Positions 882 to 5,529 of a stretch of 29,919 nucleotides of DNA are shown here, in pieces (the stretch's first letter is position 1; each line of letters opens with the position of its first letter). Made by a program: the position numbers and the translations under genes. The DNA lies in IMG/VR virus record IMGVR_UViG_3300027714_000075, positions 1 through 29,919 of that record. One strand, given 5' to 3'. The DNA is from a virus. Below the pieces are notes generated by a model that was not told the DNA's origin, did not search any database, and saw only the letters and a list, made by a program, of their open reading frames with translations.

Positions 882-1199
882 ATGGAACCCGAAAAGTCCT
901 TACTTAAAGAGTTTATTAATGGTGGCTGGATTATTCCGCTTATTGGAGCAGGGGCCATGCTGGCGCGGTTACTGTCATCTGATACTAAGCTTACTTGGGT
1001 TCAGCAACTTAAGAAGATTGTAACTGCTGCGATAGCTTCATTAGTAGCTTGGTTTGTATTGGAACAAACAGATATACCTTCTGTGTATAAGGCTGTAACA
1101 TACGGAATTATAGGTGTAATATCCCCGGAAGTAATAACAGGTATTGTTAAACTTGGAAAGCGCTTTGCTGCTAATCCAGAAAAAATACTAAAAAAATGA
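882..1199 (+). CDS. Holin (LydA / holin superfamily III-like)
   Basis: 105-residue membrane protein. Hydrophobic segments lie at about residues 13-32 (GGWIIPLIGAGAMLARLL), 44-61 and 70-90, followed by a lysine-rich cytoplasmic-type tail ending in KKILKK-like basic residues. Size, three-segment topology and the GGW...P...G.G entry into the first helix fit phage holins of the LydA/superfamily III kind, which permeabilise the inner membrane at lysis so that endolysin can reach the peptidoglycan. No endolysin gene is visible in the window, so the lysis module is incomplete here. It is the first gene of a two-gene unit: its last codons overlap the next ATG by 4 nt. The late promoter suits lysis timing. 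The family assignment is from recognition of the pattern. Confidence 0.65.
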   Translation: MEPEKSLLKEFINGGWIIPLIGAGAMLARLLSSDTKLTWVQQLKKIVTAAIASLVAWFVLEQTDIPSVYKAVTYGIIGVISPEVITGIVKLGKRFAANPEKILKK

Positions 1200-1435
1200 A
1201 CCCTCGATGCTTAGTTTATATCCTAGCGGCTATTGTGGTAGCATTTGTATTTCGTGGTTACTTGGCTGCAGAAGAAGTACAATCAATTATGCATGAGGCA
1301 GCAAACGGAAATGTAGAAGCCATAACATGTAGTAACGCGTGTGGTACTATTGATCGGTTTCAAACATATTTGTTATGTTCTGGTGCTCTAGCGGTAGTTA
1401 TGGCAGTATGCTGTAGATTAAAAGCGCCGAAGTAA
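1196..1435 (+). CDS. Small two-segment membrane protein, possible holin partner
   Basis: 79-residue protein whose ATG overlaps the holin stop (ATGA), implying translational coupling. Two hydrophobic helices lie at about residues 5-19 (CLVYILAAIVVAFVF) and 58-73 (TYLLCSGALAVVMAVC), joined by a roughly 38-residue polar loop with two cysteines (C45, C49). The C terminus is basic. I do not recognise the family. Position and topology suggest a holin accessory, antiholin or other lysis protein, but it lacks a lipobox or coiled coil that would point to a spanin. The loop would be periplasmic if both termini are cytoplasmic, and the cysteine pair could then form a disulfide. Confidence 0.6.
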   Translation: MNPRCLVYILAAIVVAFVFRGYLAAEEVQSIMHEAANGNVEAITCSNACGTIDRFQTYLLCSGALAVVMAVCCRLKAPK

Positions 1436-1459: not shown

Positions 1460-3784
1460 ATGGGGAAAAAGATCACTCAGCTTAATGGTAATGAATTACC
1501 ATATACTGGTACTGAACAAGTAGCAATAGTAGAAGACCTAGAAACAAGAAGAGGTTCATTAAGTTCTATTGTTACTTACCTCTCTTCGGCAGATTATGGA
1601 GGGTCTCAGCCTCTAGCATCTCCTCATAAAGACAACAAATTTTCAACTACCCAGACTATAAATGCCGCCTTAAGTGTAACTGGTGGTAAAATCTCTTTTG
1701 ATGCTAACGTTGCATGTCTAGGTGCAACTGCAGCTGGTGGATCTGTACTTGGGGGATCTACACATGTTAATTCTGGCGCGTGTAGTACAATCGCTGGAGG
1801 TAAATCTAATACAATGGCAGGTTCGTATTCTACAATTGCCGGTGGGACTAATAACCAGACGAGTGCAGACACTACCAATTCAACTATTGCAGGTGGATAT
1901 AATAACGCCATTAATGGTTATTGCAGCTTCCTTGGAGGTGGTTGTGACAATACAATCGAAGGAGCGGTCGACGGCCAGGTCCTCGTAGGTGGTAGACGGA
2001 ATTATGTAGGTGGTAGTGAAGCTTTCTTAGGTGGAGGATGTGGCAATAAAGCTACCGGAAGTCATTCTACTATTGGTGGTGGGGGATTATTATCAGCTAT
2101 AGGGGGATGCTCATTTGTAGGAGGTGGATTGTCATCTGTTGCTGTTGGTAATTTTTCAACCATAGTTGGTGGGCTAAGTAACACAGCGCAAGGATATGCT
2201 TCCTTCATCGGCGGAGGGTTTTGCAATACAGCGCCAGGTTTAAGCGCAGCAATAGTTGCTGGTCATAGGAATATAGCTAGCGGTAAGGCAGCTTTCATAG
2301 GCGGTGGTGTAAAAAATACTGCTAGTGGTAGAGCATCATTTGTAGGCGGTGGATATTGTAACATAGCCGCAGGGCTAAGCTCCACTATTGTAGGAGGATT
2401 AAGCAACTGTGTGAAGGCGGGCGCGACCGGCTCTACTATTGTCGGAGGAATTAGTAGCACTGTGGTTGGCGTTGCAGGGTTTATAGGAGGTGGTGGAGAG
2501 AACTGTATTGGTAATCAGGTCGGTCATGACTATAGCTTTATCGGCGGCGGGTGGCAGAATAGGACGAGTGGTTACAGAGTAGCAGTTGTAGGCGGGGTGG
2601 CCAACAGCGCGACGAGTTGCCACAGCTTTATTGGAGCAGGGTGCGAAAACCAAAGTGATGGGTATGAAACCTTTGTTGGAGCGGGTAATAATAATTTAGC
2701 TTGCGCTAATCAAAGTTTTGTAGGAGGCGGAAACAATAATACAGGTTGCGGAGTTCGTTCAGTAGTCGGTGGTGGCTGGGGCAACGAGACAAAAGGTGAG
2801 CTCTCCTTTATTGGTGGTGGTAAGAGTAATTTAGCTTGCGGGTTAAGTGCTACTATAGTAGGTGGGGGTGATAATTACACTCTTGGTGAGGGGACATTTA
2901 TAGGAGGCGGGTGCGGGTTATCAGCTATTGCTAATTGGTCTACAATAGTTGGTGGTGTTAGTAGCTGTACAAAGGGTGTAGGGTCGTTTGTCGGAGGAGG
3001 ATTTGCTAACATAGCTTGTGGATTAAGTTCTGTAGTTGTAGGTGGTGCTCACAACACTGCTAGCGGATGTGTATCCTTCATAGGCGGTGGTTGTGGTAAT
3101 GTTATTTCAACCGCAGGACATAAGGGGTTTATAGGAGGAGGTAACTGCAACAATGTTGTCTCTGAGACTTCCTTTGTGGGTGCTGGGTATAATAATAAGG
3201 CAGGAACTACTTCAGGGTGCGCAGCTGTAATGGCTGGTTATGGTAATACCGCGACAAACAATAACATAGTTGTTGGTGGTGGGCTAAACTGTGCTGTGGG
3301 TAGTATGTCTATTGTAGCTGGTGGTTATTGTAACTGTACTTACGGATCTAATGCCTTTATCGGATCAGGAGAGTGTAATAGAGTTATTGGTGCCGGCGCA
3401 ACTATCGTGTCTGGTACGAGTAGCCGAGCTGAGGGTGCCCTGTCTGTTATTGTAGGTGGTAGCTATAACAAAGTTTCCGGAGCCAGTTCTGGTATTTTGG
3501 TGGGTGTCCGCCATAAAATTACAGGCACGTGCTCGTCTATCGCATCCGGTGTTAGCAGCTGTATCACAGCCAATCGCGGATTTATTGGAGCAGGTTGTTG
3601 CAACGCGTTAATACATAATGATTCGGCTATTTTTGGAACTGATATGACCTCTGTGTCGACTAACATGTTACATGCGCAAAAATTGTTTTTGAACCTCGAT
3701 GATATACCGTCTTCTGATCCTACAGTATGTGGGGTCATTTGGCATGACAGTGGTACTTTAAAAGTATCTACCTCACAGTCGTAG
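1460..3784 (+). CDS. Tail fibre / receptor-binding-type protein with YadA-like beta-roll repeats
   Basis: 774-residue protein in three parts. Residues 1-45 (KITQLNGNELPYTGTEQVAIVED...) match the N-terminal module common in phage fibres, which likely attaches it to the virion. Residues about 94-736 are some 42 tandem 15-residue repeats of the form S-[FT]-I-x-G-G-x-x-N-x-x-x-G-x-x, where SFIGGG copies often alternate with STIVGG copies; this resembles the head repeat of trimeric autotransporter adhesins, which folds as a left-handed beta-roll. Residues 737-774 end in GVIWHDSGTLKVS, a motif frequent at fibre C termini. About 31 cysteines occur, nearly all inside repeats, which is unusual. No chaperone-type peptidase domain is seen. 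Host-surface adhesion is inferred. The gene is visibly richer in G than its neighbours because of the glycine codons. Confidence 0.75.
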   Translation: MGKKITQLNGNELPYTGTEQVAIVEDLETRRGSLSSIVTYLSSADYGGSQPLASPHKDNKFSTTQTINAALSVTGGKISFDANVACLGATAAGGSVLGGSTHVNSGACSTIAGGKSNTMAGSYSTIAGGTNNQTSADTTNSTIAGGYNNAINGYCSFLGGGCDNTIEGAVDGQVLVGGRRNYVGGSEAFLGGGCGNKATGSHSTIGGGGLLSAIGGCSFVGGGLSSVAVGNFSTIVGGLSNTAQGYASFIGGGFCNTAPGLSAAIVAGHRNIASGKAAFIGGGVKNTASGRASFVGGGYCNIAAGLSSTIVGGLSNCVKAGATGSTIVGGISSTVVGVAGFIGGGGENCIGNQVGHDYSFIGGGWQNRTSGYRVAVVGGVANSATSCHSFIGAGCENQSDGYETFVGAGNNNLACANQSFVGGGNNNTGCGVRSVVGGGWGNETKGELSFIGGGKSNLACGLSATIVGGGDNYTLGEGTFIGGGCGLSAIANWSTIVGGVSSCTKGVGSFVGGGFANIACGLSSVVVGGAHNTASGCVSFIGGGCGNVISTAGHKGFIGGGNCNNVVSETSFVGAGYNNKAGTTSGCAAVMAGYGNTATNNNIVVGGGLNCAVGSMSIVAGGYCNCTYGSNAFIGSGECNRVIGAGATIVSGTSSRAEGALSVIVGGSYNKVSGASSGILVGVRHKITGTCSSIASGVSSCITANRGFIGAGCCNALIHNDSAIFGTDMTSVSTNMLHAQKLFLNLDDIPSSDPTVCGVIWHDSGTLKVSTSQS
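1739..3667 (+). repeat. Coding tandem repeat, about 42 units of 45 bp
   Basis: Degenerate 45-bp units encoding the 15-residue beta-roll repeat. The protein pattern is well kept while the DNA has diverged between units, so this is an old, selected array and not a recent slippage expansion. A few units carry 1-4 extra residues (for example near residues 128 and 360). Confidence 0.8.
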
Positions 3785-3788
3785 TAGT

Positions 3789-4577
3789 CTAAAAATCGTA
3801 AGTAAAGCTAACGTACTGTTCGTACATAGGACCTAAAATTTGCTCAGAGTCATCTTCTTGTGGCTCAATGACTGGCCGTATAGTATGTAAATCAGCAAAG
3901 CCATGCTCGGCATCGTTTTCTTGTGTGTATTGCTCTACATTATTAAAATTATGTTTGAAGTATGGCTTATCTAAAAACTTATACACCTTTCTTATAATTG
4001 TATCAGGTGTATGTGTAAGGTCGTCATAATCTATAAAATGAAATTTATCCTTATGACCTCTTATACACGCATCAAATAATGCATTATATGTTTCACCGAC
4101 TATACCATCAGTGGCTGCCCATGTATTTACCCTACCTTCAATAGTACCCATTTGAGGTCCAGGTTGCATGAGAGAAGAGGCACATTTAATCTCTCTACGA
4201 TAAAGTTTTTCTAAGGAAGCTAGGACACTAGTAAGTTTCCTTGTTGTTGAAATAATCTTTATTGGTCGATCTAGTGCATTTTCTACTAACTCGATCATAC
4301 CAGCCCACGCACGGGACTTGTTAAAGACAATAGGTCGATCATTATCTAAATGATACGATTGAAAGAGGTCTCGTATCAACACCAGCTGCTTGTCAGAAGG
4401 TTCAGCAGCCTTAATTACTGGATTGTTTTTCCATAAACTTTGTATCCCGTGTATTATATCTGGTAGACCTGATGTTGCAGTAACATGAAAGGCCGGGTTT
4501 TGGGCTAGAATATTACAAAAAAGTGTACTGCCGGATCGTGGCATGCCATTAATAAAAAAAATTTCTTTTTTATCCAC
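3789..4577 (-). CDS. Sulfotransferase family protein (PAPS-dependent)
   Basis: 262-residue protein starting at GTG 4577. Near the N terminus FFINGMPRSGSTLF contains the phosphosulfate-binding loop (PRSGSTL, about residues 13-19) that contacts the 5'-phosphosulfate of PAPS. A second site, IISTTRKLTSVLASL, sits where the 3'-phosphate-binding Arg/Ser motif is expected. Enzymes of this family move sulfate to hydroxyl or amino groups of carbohydrates, peptides or lipids; the acceptor is unknown. The open frame continues upstream to 4781, adding a hydrophobic segment, but that part overlaps the divergent neighbour, and ATTAAATC plus a 5-nt spacer precedes GTG 4577, so the shorter start is preferred. 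It ends 4 bp from the fibre gene stop (convergent). Late expression next to a fibre and a glycosyltransferase suggests surface or virion glycan modification. Confidence 0.8.
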   Translation of the reverse strand: MDKKEIFFINGMPRSGSTLFCNILAQNPAFHVTATSGLPDIIHGIQSLWKNNPVIKAAEPSDKQLVLIRDLFQSYHLDNDRPIVFNKSRAWAGMIELVENALDRPIKIISTTRKLTSVLASLEKLYRREIKCASSLMQPGPQMGTIEGRVNTWAATDGIVGETYNALFDACIRGHKDKFHFIDYDDLTHTPDTIIRKVYKFLDKPYFKHNFNNVEQYTQENDAEHGFADLHTIRPVIEPQEDDSEQILGPMYEQYVSFTYDF

Positions 4578-4590
4578 GTTAAGATTTAAT
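4578..4590 (-). promoter_or_regulatory. Late promoter-like element for the sulfotransferase
   Basis: Minus strand ATTAAATC at 4590-4583 with a 5-nt spacer (TTAAC) to the GTG at 4577. One mismatch from the usual core; it decides the start codon. Confidence 0.5.
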
Positions 4591-4621
4591 CTCACATGAT
4601 TGAATATCCATTCTAGCGCCC

Positions 4622-4632: not shown

Positions 4633-5529
4633 ATGGCAAACACTGTATTCCATATTGAAGGTGGTATAGGGAAGAATATCGCAGCAACTGCAATGATAGC
4701 TGCATATAAAAAGGCTAAACCAAAAAGAAAAATTGTGGTAGTTTCAGCTTGGCCGGAAATCTTTGTAAAGAATCCTAACATCGATCGATTTTACCGAATA
4801 GGTAATACTCCTTATTTTTATAACGATATCATATTCAATAAAGATGTTGAAATTTATTGTCAAGATCCTTATAAACAAACTGGTCATATTACCAAAAAGA
4901 AGCATCTAATAGAAACTTGGTGTAATATGGCAGGGGTAAAATATGACAACGAGCCTGTATCACTACATTATAATTTTAGAGAGGTAGAAGAAGCGAAATC
5001 TATGGCAACACAATTTCATGACCCAGCTAAGCCTTTGCTAATTTTTCAGCCATTTGGTGGCCCTGGCAAGGACCATCAACCTTCTCCTTATGCTTGGACC
5101 AGAGATCTACATCCTCAACACGCACAAGAGATAGTAAATGCGCTAAAGGATAAATATAACATTGTCCACGTGTGCTATGATTTTCACCCTCAGTTAGAAA
5201 ATTGTCATAGATTTGACGCAATTATAGGAAAAAAACCATTATTTGCATTAATGAGCTTCTCGGAAAAAAGATTACTCATTGATTCATCTCTTCAACACGC
5301 TGCCGCCGCTCTAGGTTTACCTTCTGTTGTGCTGTGGGTTGCAACTCAGCCAGAAACATTTGGCTATCCAATTCATAATAATATTACACCAAATAAAACC
5401 TTTCCTGAAGGAACCATAGATTCATATCTATTTGATTATCAATTTACAGGACAGGTGCATGAATGCCCTTATGATCAAGCTACTGAAATACACAGCATTG
5501 ATACTATTATTAAAGCCGTAGAAGGTTAA
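4633..5529 (+). CDS. Glycosyltransferase family 9-like (ADP-heptose:LPS heptosyltransferase-related)
   Basis: 298-residue protein beginning MANTVFHIEGGIGKNIAATA, the glycine-rich entry loop typical of the N-terminal Rossmann domain of GT9 heptosyltransferases. A second Rossmann domain has LLIFQPFGG, a W...HAQEIVNALKDKYNIVHVC segment, and the diagnostic LLIDSSLQHAAAALGLPSVVLW, which in GT9 enzymes forms the nucleotide-sugar site. GT9 proteins add sugars, usually heptose from ADP-heptose, to lipopolysaccharide core; the donor here is not determinable. An upstream ATG at 4600 in the same frame would overlap the sulfotransferase promoter and lacks the spacing rule, so 4633 is preferred. Its stop overlaps the stop of the convergent neck gene by 4 bp. 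Confidence 0.75.
   Translation: MANTVFHIEGGIGKNIAATAMIAAYKKAKPKRKIVVVSAWPEIFVKNPNIDRFYRIGNTPYFYNDIIFNKDVEIYCQDPYKQTGHITKKKHLIETWCNMAGVKYDNEPVSLHYNFREVEEAKSMATQFHDPAKPLLIFQPFGGPGKDHQPSPYAWTRDLHPQHAQEIVNALKDKYNIVHVCYDFHPQLENCHRFDAIIGKKPLFALMSFSEKRLLIDSSLQHAAAALGLPSVVLWVATQPETFGYPIHNNITPNKTFPEGTIDSYLFDYQFTGQVHECPYDQATEIHSIDTIIKAVEG

Follow-up and report, generated by a model that had tools for sequence, protein, structure and literature searches.

The head of UspA1 is a known LPBR with 15-residue repeats, its layers being mostly of 15 rather than 14 residues, and in the numbering used for this fold positions 5 and 7 point to the core while the intervening residue points to the chain interior (PMC9543794). 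BpaC of Burkholderia comprises 42 such layers, with a published rise of 81.5 Å over layers 23 to 42 (PMC9543794). YadA-like domains have already been reported in fibres or structural proteins of marine phages and pelagimyophages (PMC3909814, PMC7029224). The BAHT enzymes TibC and Aah hyperglycosylate Ser residues of beta-helical autotransporter passengers, TibC carrying a four-Cys iron-finger insertion (PMC4358343), and the enzymatic attachment of sugar to Cys is known from the glycocins (PMC6405829, PMC12457901).

The 29.9-kb virus record analysed here (the window) carries tail and packaging genes of T4-like type; its terminase is 32-38% identical to its best matches (Sinorhizobium phage phiM9, cyanophages and Pelagibacter phage HTVC008M). 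The window encodes a Cys-rich fibre close to a glycosyltransferase (GT) gene. From computation, we put at roughly 60% the probability that the fibre cysteines are acceptors for S-linked glycosylation by this GT9-fold neighbour, the sugars often being sulfated. The features concerned are:

882..1199, + strand: holin-like gene, two genes upstream of the fibre gene, conserved in the synteny block
1196..1435, + strand: probable membrane protein of 79 aa with 6 Cys (7.6%), directly upstream of the fibre gene
1460..3784, + strand: Cys-rich tail-fibre protein of 774 aa, with an N-terminal domain, a predicted left-handed beta-roll of ~40 layers and a short C-terminal domain; full-length homologs (L125-L151) share this layout
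1460..1714, + strand: N-terminal domain of the fibre (residues 1-85, MGKKITQL...), with zero Cys, conserved in 11 homologs
1739..3622, + strand: repeat array S-[FT]-I-[GV]-G-G-x-x-N-x-A-x-G-x-x, with Cys only at positions 7, 8, 10, 12, 14 and 15; matches the UspA1 head
3623..3781, + strand: C-terminal domain of the fibre (NMLHAQ...IPSSDPTVCGVIWHDSGTLKVS), kept in relatives
3789..4595, - strand: sulfotransferase (Pfam Sulfotransfer_3, E=2e-13), likely GTG start at 4595 or 4577, listed ATG at 4781
4633..5529, + strand: GT9-fold glycosyltransferase of 298 aa (AlphaFold and Foldseek), whose presence tracks fibre Cys

Layout and fold of the fibre

The reading frame at 1460-3784 is open throughout its 774 codons. 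An iterative profile placed 39 fifteen-residue repeats in it (40 with one 30-residue unit), from residue ~94-109 to residue 721; the fifteen-residue array described in an earlier note on this DNA is thus real, at a count slightly below the ~42 given there. The consensus can also be written S-[FT]-[IV]-[GV]-G-G-x-x-N-x-A-x-G-x-x, position 3 being I or V. Full-length homologs (747-820 aa, with 30-70 Cys each) have the N-terminus, the ~40 layers and the C-terminus in common, and residues 1-85 are probably the part that attaches to the virion. The fibre matched no PHROGs family, and a peptide search among genome contigs returned zero matches. Direct tblastn in named phages gave nothing useful, for which low-complexity filtering is probably to blame. 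A 6.7-kb contig, L002 (IMGVR_UViG_3300006164_000531), matches the window at 100% identity across the C-terminus of the fibre as well as the GT, and apparently represents the same virus population.

The fibre matched the UspA1 head (PDB 3PR7) with E=1e-13 by phmmer and E=8e-34 by profile search, with 3NTN also matched, which bears out the resemblance to a YadA-type head that had been proposed. Together with the 14-/15-residue repeats, the invariant Gly and the core hydrophobics, these matches support a left-handed beta-roll head of the UspA1/YadA type. The predicted monomer consists almost entirely of short strands (pLDDT 79, pTM 0.51), and Foldseek gave no confident match for it in the PDB, so that the assignment draws on sequence comparison; in BFVD its matches were uncultured phage proteins. 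Pfam returned a weak, sub-threshold match to the ice-binding beta-roll LbR_Ice_bind. It detected neither a YadA_anchor nor a coiled-coil stalk in the window fibre and 10 homologs, and thus the fibre does not classify as a trimeric autotransporter adhesin.

Reading the motif against the published numbering (PMC9543794), positions 2 and 4 would face the core and position 3 the chain interior, with positions 7, 8, 10, 12, 14 and 15 in the turn or outer strand. Of the 977 layers of viral beta-rolls that have Phe at position 2, 949 (97%) have Gly at position 4, which is consistent with the core-facing mapping of these two positions and probably reflects packing at the trimer axis. The alternation of SFIGGG and STIVGG layers that the earlier note had pointed out is present in the window fibre as a tendency (25 class switches against 20 expected), but the signal is weak (p=0.07) and the 30-residue super-repeat built on it was rejected. 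Adjacent F-class layers are somewhat rare across the viral family (101 seen against ~154 expected, from tabulated counts). At the rise published for BpaC, 40 layers would span ~17 nm; since BpaC itself has 42 (PMC9543794), the size of the fibre is not unusual.

Cysteine placement and turnover

The fibre contains exactly 31 Cys (4.0%), and all 27 that lie within parsed repeats occupy the variable positions 7, 8, 10, 12, 14 or 15 (p=2e-11 against a uniform distribution), with zero Cys at the conserved positions of these repeats. Both the number and its bias to variable positions agree with what had been claimed. So does the excess over neighbouring proteins, which average ~0.82% Cys across 29 genes of the window (p ~1e-12 for 31/774), one of these genes having been read in a wrong frame with hardly any effect on the average.

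In order to place this content among related proteins, a DNA pattern spanning two successive repeats was run against collections of viral and of bacterial/archaeal genomes, and near-duplicates were removed; the viral set additionally took in homologs reached through the N- and C-terminal domains of the fibre. Median repeat Cys was 3.8% in 133 viral proteins (3501 layers) and 0.0% in 116 bacterial ones (1973 layers; p=2e-29). At solvent-facing positions the values were 9.7% and 0.7%, and Cys was the sole residue there that differed by more than ~3-fold between the two sets. The nearly Cys-free bacterial beta-rolls would be expected if Cys were merely excluded from secreted adhesins by oxidising export and tolerated in phage fibres, which fold in the cytoplasm. 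Tolerance alone does not account for viral solvent-facing Cys at ~5 times the base-composition expectation, however, nor for the median of only 1.4% in viral fibres without GT, and we find this explanation hardly credible. A base-composition artefact was also rejected, given this ~5-fold excess over neutral expectation and a Cys content of 1.1% outside the repeats.

The earlier note had envisaged a ladder of stacked disulfides, or metal sites, along the fibre. Close layer stacking in beta-rolls would permit stacked bonds (PMC9543794), and the virion of Agrobacterium phage Milano is extensively disulfide-bonded (PMC10811340); fibre Cys might accordingly stiffen the fibre as in the Milano tail, whether as a ladder or through bonds formed opportunistically after lysis in oxic water. 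In permutations over 95 viral proteins, however, Cys pairs at the same position of the next layer were at chance (197 seen against 195 expected), and pairs within a layer were fewer than chance (555 against 633, z -3.8). Moreover, close homologs swap single Cys for Ser, Tyr, Asn, Arg, Glu and others, and only the Cys at residue 108 is invariant in an 11-sequence alignment of the fibre. Cysteines that are unpaired and exchanged singly argue against a ladder, against disulfide pairs and against conserved metal sites. Disulfide bonding would also leave the link to the glycosyltransferase unexplained, and we consider it highly doubtful. S-glycosylation would call for sites of another kind: Cys that are dense, exposed, unpaired, individually dispensable and slightly spaced within the layer fit the acceptors of a multi-site modification. 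A point against this reading is that no sequon was seen.

The glycosyltransferase and its association with fibre cysteine

The AlphaFold model of the enzyme at 4633-5529 (pLDDT 92.9, pTM 0.90) retrieved 3TOV (E=2.5e-12, TM 0.70), WaaF, WaaC and TibC in Foldseek. Pfam matched Glyco_transf_9 under its cutoff (E=6e-4), and in HHalign the C-terminal part alone aligned to WaaC/WaaF. Together these results indicate a GT-B fold with the C-terminal nucleotide-sugar motif of GT9. In an alignment of 26 glycosyltransferases, the loop that follows strand 1 has an invariant motif GG[ILVA]GK. WaaC and WaaF of E. coli have GD there, and it is no more than a guess that the Lys of the motif replaces the catalytic Asp.

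Among pattern-derived viral records, the GT was found in 44 of 66 with at least 2% fibre Cys and in 2 of 31 below that level (p=1e-8, kinship being ignored). The bias persisted among records of at least 30 kb that lacked the GT in the fetched locus: 20 of 34 Cys-rich and 1 of 9 Cys-poor records have it (p=0.02). One of the two Cys-poor exceptions with a GT is a marginal match, and the record of the other also has a beta-roll ORF with 2.0% Cys. The GT was missing from 22 of the 66 Cys-rich records, and from 14 of the 34 longer ones; these may be fragments or users of another enzyme, and in some records several kb separate the GT from the fibre. Where Cys-rich beta-roll records as long as 40-80 kb have no GT9-like gene (L012, L006, L104, L177 and similar), a different modifying enzyme may be present, and by-eye inspection of Cys-rich loci without GT brought out no common alternative.

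The same association appears in bacterial contigs, where a GT relative lies near 4 of 5 beta-roll ORFs with at least 2% Cys and near 0 of 111 Cys-poor ones (p=7e-7), the three highest-Cys ORFs all having one nearby. Contigs L216, L237, L198 and L247, which combine a Cys-rich beta-roll ORF with a GT relative, come from Bacteroidetes/Bacteroidia MAGs and may represent prophages, mis-binned phages or bacterial islands; L216 also has a sulfotransferase.

The computation was also run in the opposite search direction, starting from the GT. Relatives were confirmed at at least 590 IMG/VR loci, 80 of which were kept for neighbour analysis. Among 46 distinct loci, 63% have an upstream neighbour with at least 3% Cys, a level reached by 5.6% of 339 other ORFs, and the excess persists for neighbours that are not beta-rolls (p=0.002). 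These neighbours are of several types, including proteins with 20-residue SNFLGYNAG repeats, proteins with TNDAGYTCNTGT repeats and non-repetitive proteins of ~300 aa. Two proteins of the last type (L348:1644-2513 and L353:2194-3150; 290-319 aa, 4-5% Cys) lie directly upstream of the GT and have no Pfam match.

Pelagibacter phages HTVC111P and HTVC112P are, along with one single-cell marine virus, the only members of INPHARED that carry the GT. Both pelagiphages encode it directly after a fibre gene with another type of repeat, NTAIGxxAL, which is also found in many phages without a match to either GT query. Their repeats contain 24 Cys in 1060 residues (2.26%), as against 11 in 3604 (0.31%) for 12 named relatives, a ~7-fold difference that counts as one evolutionary observation because the two phages are related. 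In the 12 comparison records, whose repeats are homologous, the stretch fetched near the fibre contains no GT; several of them are also marine.

At solvent-facing positions, median Cys is 12.1% in viral fibres accompanied by the GT and 1.4% in those without it (~9-fold), Ser and Asn are unchanged and Thr is slightly lower. As BAHTs heptosylate Ser of beta-helical repeats (PMC4358343), the GT might instead glycosylate Ser, Thr or Asn of the fibre, with Cys used otherwise, for example to bind metal or attach lipid; this is quite improbable, for it is Cys and not these residues that rises with the enzyme. Fibres with and without the GT differ mainly in Cys. Read most simply, the Cys of the fibre are the acceptors on which the enzyme acts. 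Cysteines that are unpaired, not conserved and track the GT across several fibre types point to modified residues, and their association with it across unrelated viruses makes them probable sugar attachment points rather than disulfide partners.

The sulfotransferase cassette and the proposed modification

Seven inspected homolog loci conserve the gene order exonuclease (- strand), holin, small membrane protein, fibre, GT and neck protein (- strand). At every one of these loci the small membrane protein, with 3.9-5.1% Cys in the homologs, immediately precedes the fibre. The fibre and GT genes are adjacent in the inspected full-length homologs, the sulfotransferase lying between them in the window only. 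For the sulfotransferase, a GTG start at 4595 or 4577 is likelier than the ATG at 4781, with which the gene would extend into the GT. Of 59 loci with a window-type sulfotransferase, 56 have a GT too, and in most of them the two genes share a strand and overlap or lie at most 4 nt apart. Because many of these loci were picked by way of the GT, and several are fetches that overlap one another, this figure cannot serve as an independent test. In relatives, sugar-nucleotide genes occur near the GT (GDP-mannose dehydratase/epimerase, cytidylyltransferase-like, RmlD-like and nucleotidyltransferase).

Such genes would also suit an enzyme pair that remodels host surface glycans, for instance in a superinfection block, with fibre Cys a separate adaptation (e.g., for receptor contact) in one shared host-recognition module. 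GT9 enzymes are mostly LPS heptosyltransferases, and the fold that these share with the window enzyme means that it could act on host glycans. Furthermore, the host-recognition clusters of pelagimyophages are rich in LPS-type glycosyltransferases (PMC7029224). Host-glycan remodelling does not, however, predict that the GT should go with a single amino acid, Cys, in unrelated fibres and in one matched repeat family, and we regard it as unlikely.

Under S-glycosylation of the fibre, the protein would be a tail fibre, presumably a trimer, of a T4-like myovirus from an aquatic habitat, formed mostly by a UspA1/YadA-like beta-roll of ~17 nm, in which the 31 Cys per chain (27 at solvent-facing roll positions) would be sites of covalent modification and not a disulfide ladder. 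The GT9-fold enzyme encoded downstream would put a sugar on the Cys sulfur in the host cytoplasm, before assembly, and the sulfotransferase of the cassette would then often sulfate these sugars. Each trimer may thereby display dozens of sugars, sulfated or not, with possible effects on how the fibre binds its host, stays soluble or is protected. The broader proposition, that a widespread viral system S-glycosylates surface Cys of unrelated fibres through a GT9-fold enzyme, often with a sulfotransferase producing a sulfated glycan coat and with fibre Cys content as its signature, seems to us an even bet.

So far, the linkage of sugar to Cys is known chiefly from rare proteins and a handful of small bacteriocins. 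No report linking phage-fibre Cys with a glycosyltransferase was found, within an incomplete coverage of the literature. If true, this modification would be a protein coating new to viruses, through which many aquatic phages would sugar-coat their host-recognition fibres, and phage-host recognition would gain a genetically encoded, fast-evolving layer. It would also point to a role for phrog_8954 and related proteins (the confirmed IMG/VR loci above), and supply a new family of candidate multi-site S-glycosyltransferases. A Cys-rich fibre next to a GT9-like gene is a simple sequence signature, and the cultured phages HTVC111P and HTVC112P carry it.

Among known systems, the UspA1 head (Moraxella; 3PR7 and 3NTN) and the YadA/BpaC family resemble the fibre in their mostly 15-residue repeat, in the GGxxN/G pattern and, for BpaC, in a similar number of layers. 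The fibre differs from them in its phage-type N- and C-terminal domains and its lack of an anchor or stalk by Pfam, and viral members in general in having ~10% Cys at solvent-facing positions. Phage proteins with YadA domains were described in two studies in which a word search finds no mention of cysteine (PMC3909814, PMC7029224). Phage Milano shares with the window fibre the feature of Cys-rich structural proteins, but its Cys form inter-subunit bonds in the sheath and baseplate (PMC10811340), whereas those of window-type fibres are statistically unpaired and fast-evolving.

The glycocin S-glycosyltransferases (sublancin, pallidocin and Thg) resemble the proposed system in placing sugar on Cys, but their substrates are small bacteriocins with one or few sites. 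They belong to the GT2 family, different from GT9. TibC and Aah share with the window GT a GT-B/GT9-like fold and the pairing with a repetitive, beta-structured adhesin, for which multi-site modification of the repeats is likewise proposed here. The window GT nevertheless differs from them in its proposed substrate, a phage fibre, and its proposed acceptor, Cys rather than Ser. It also has no four-Cys iron finger, no such motif being conserved in the alignment with its relatives, and its 298 aa leave out the N-terminal beta-barrel of ~97 residues, the first strand starting at residue 3 and a helix at 12. The absence of both elements places the window GT outside the BAHT family, though the proposed arrangement of enzyme and repetitive substrate would work similarly.
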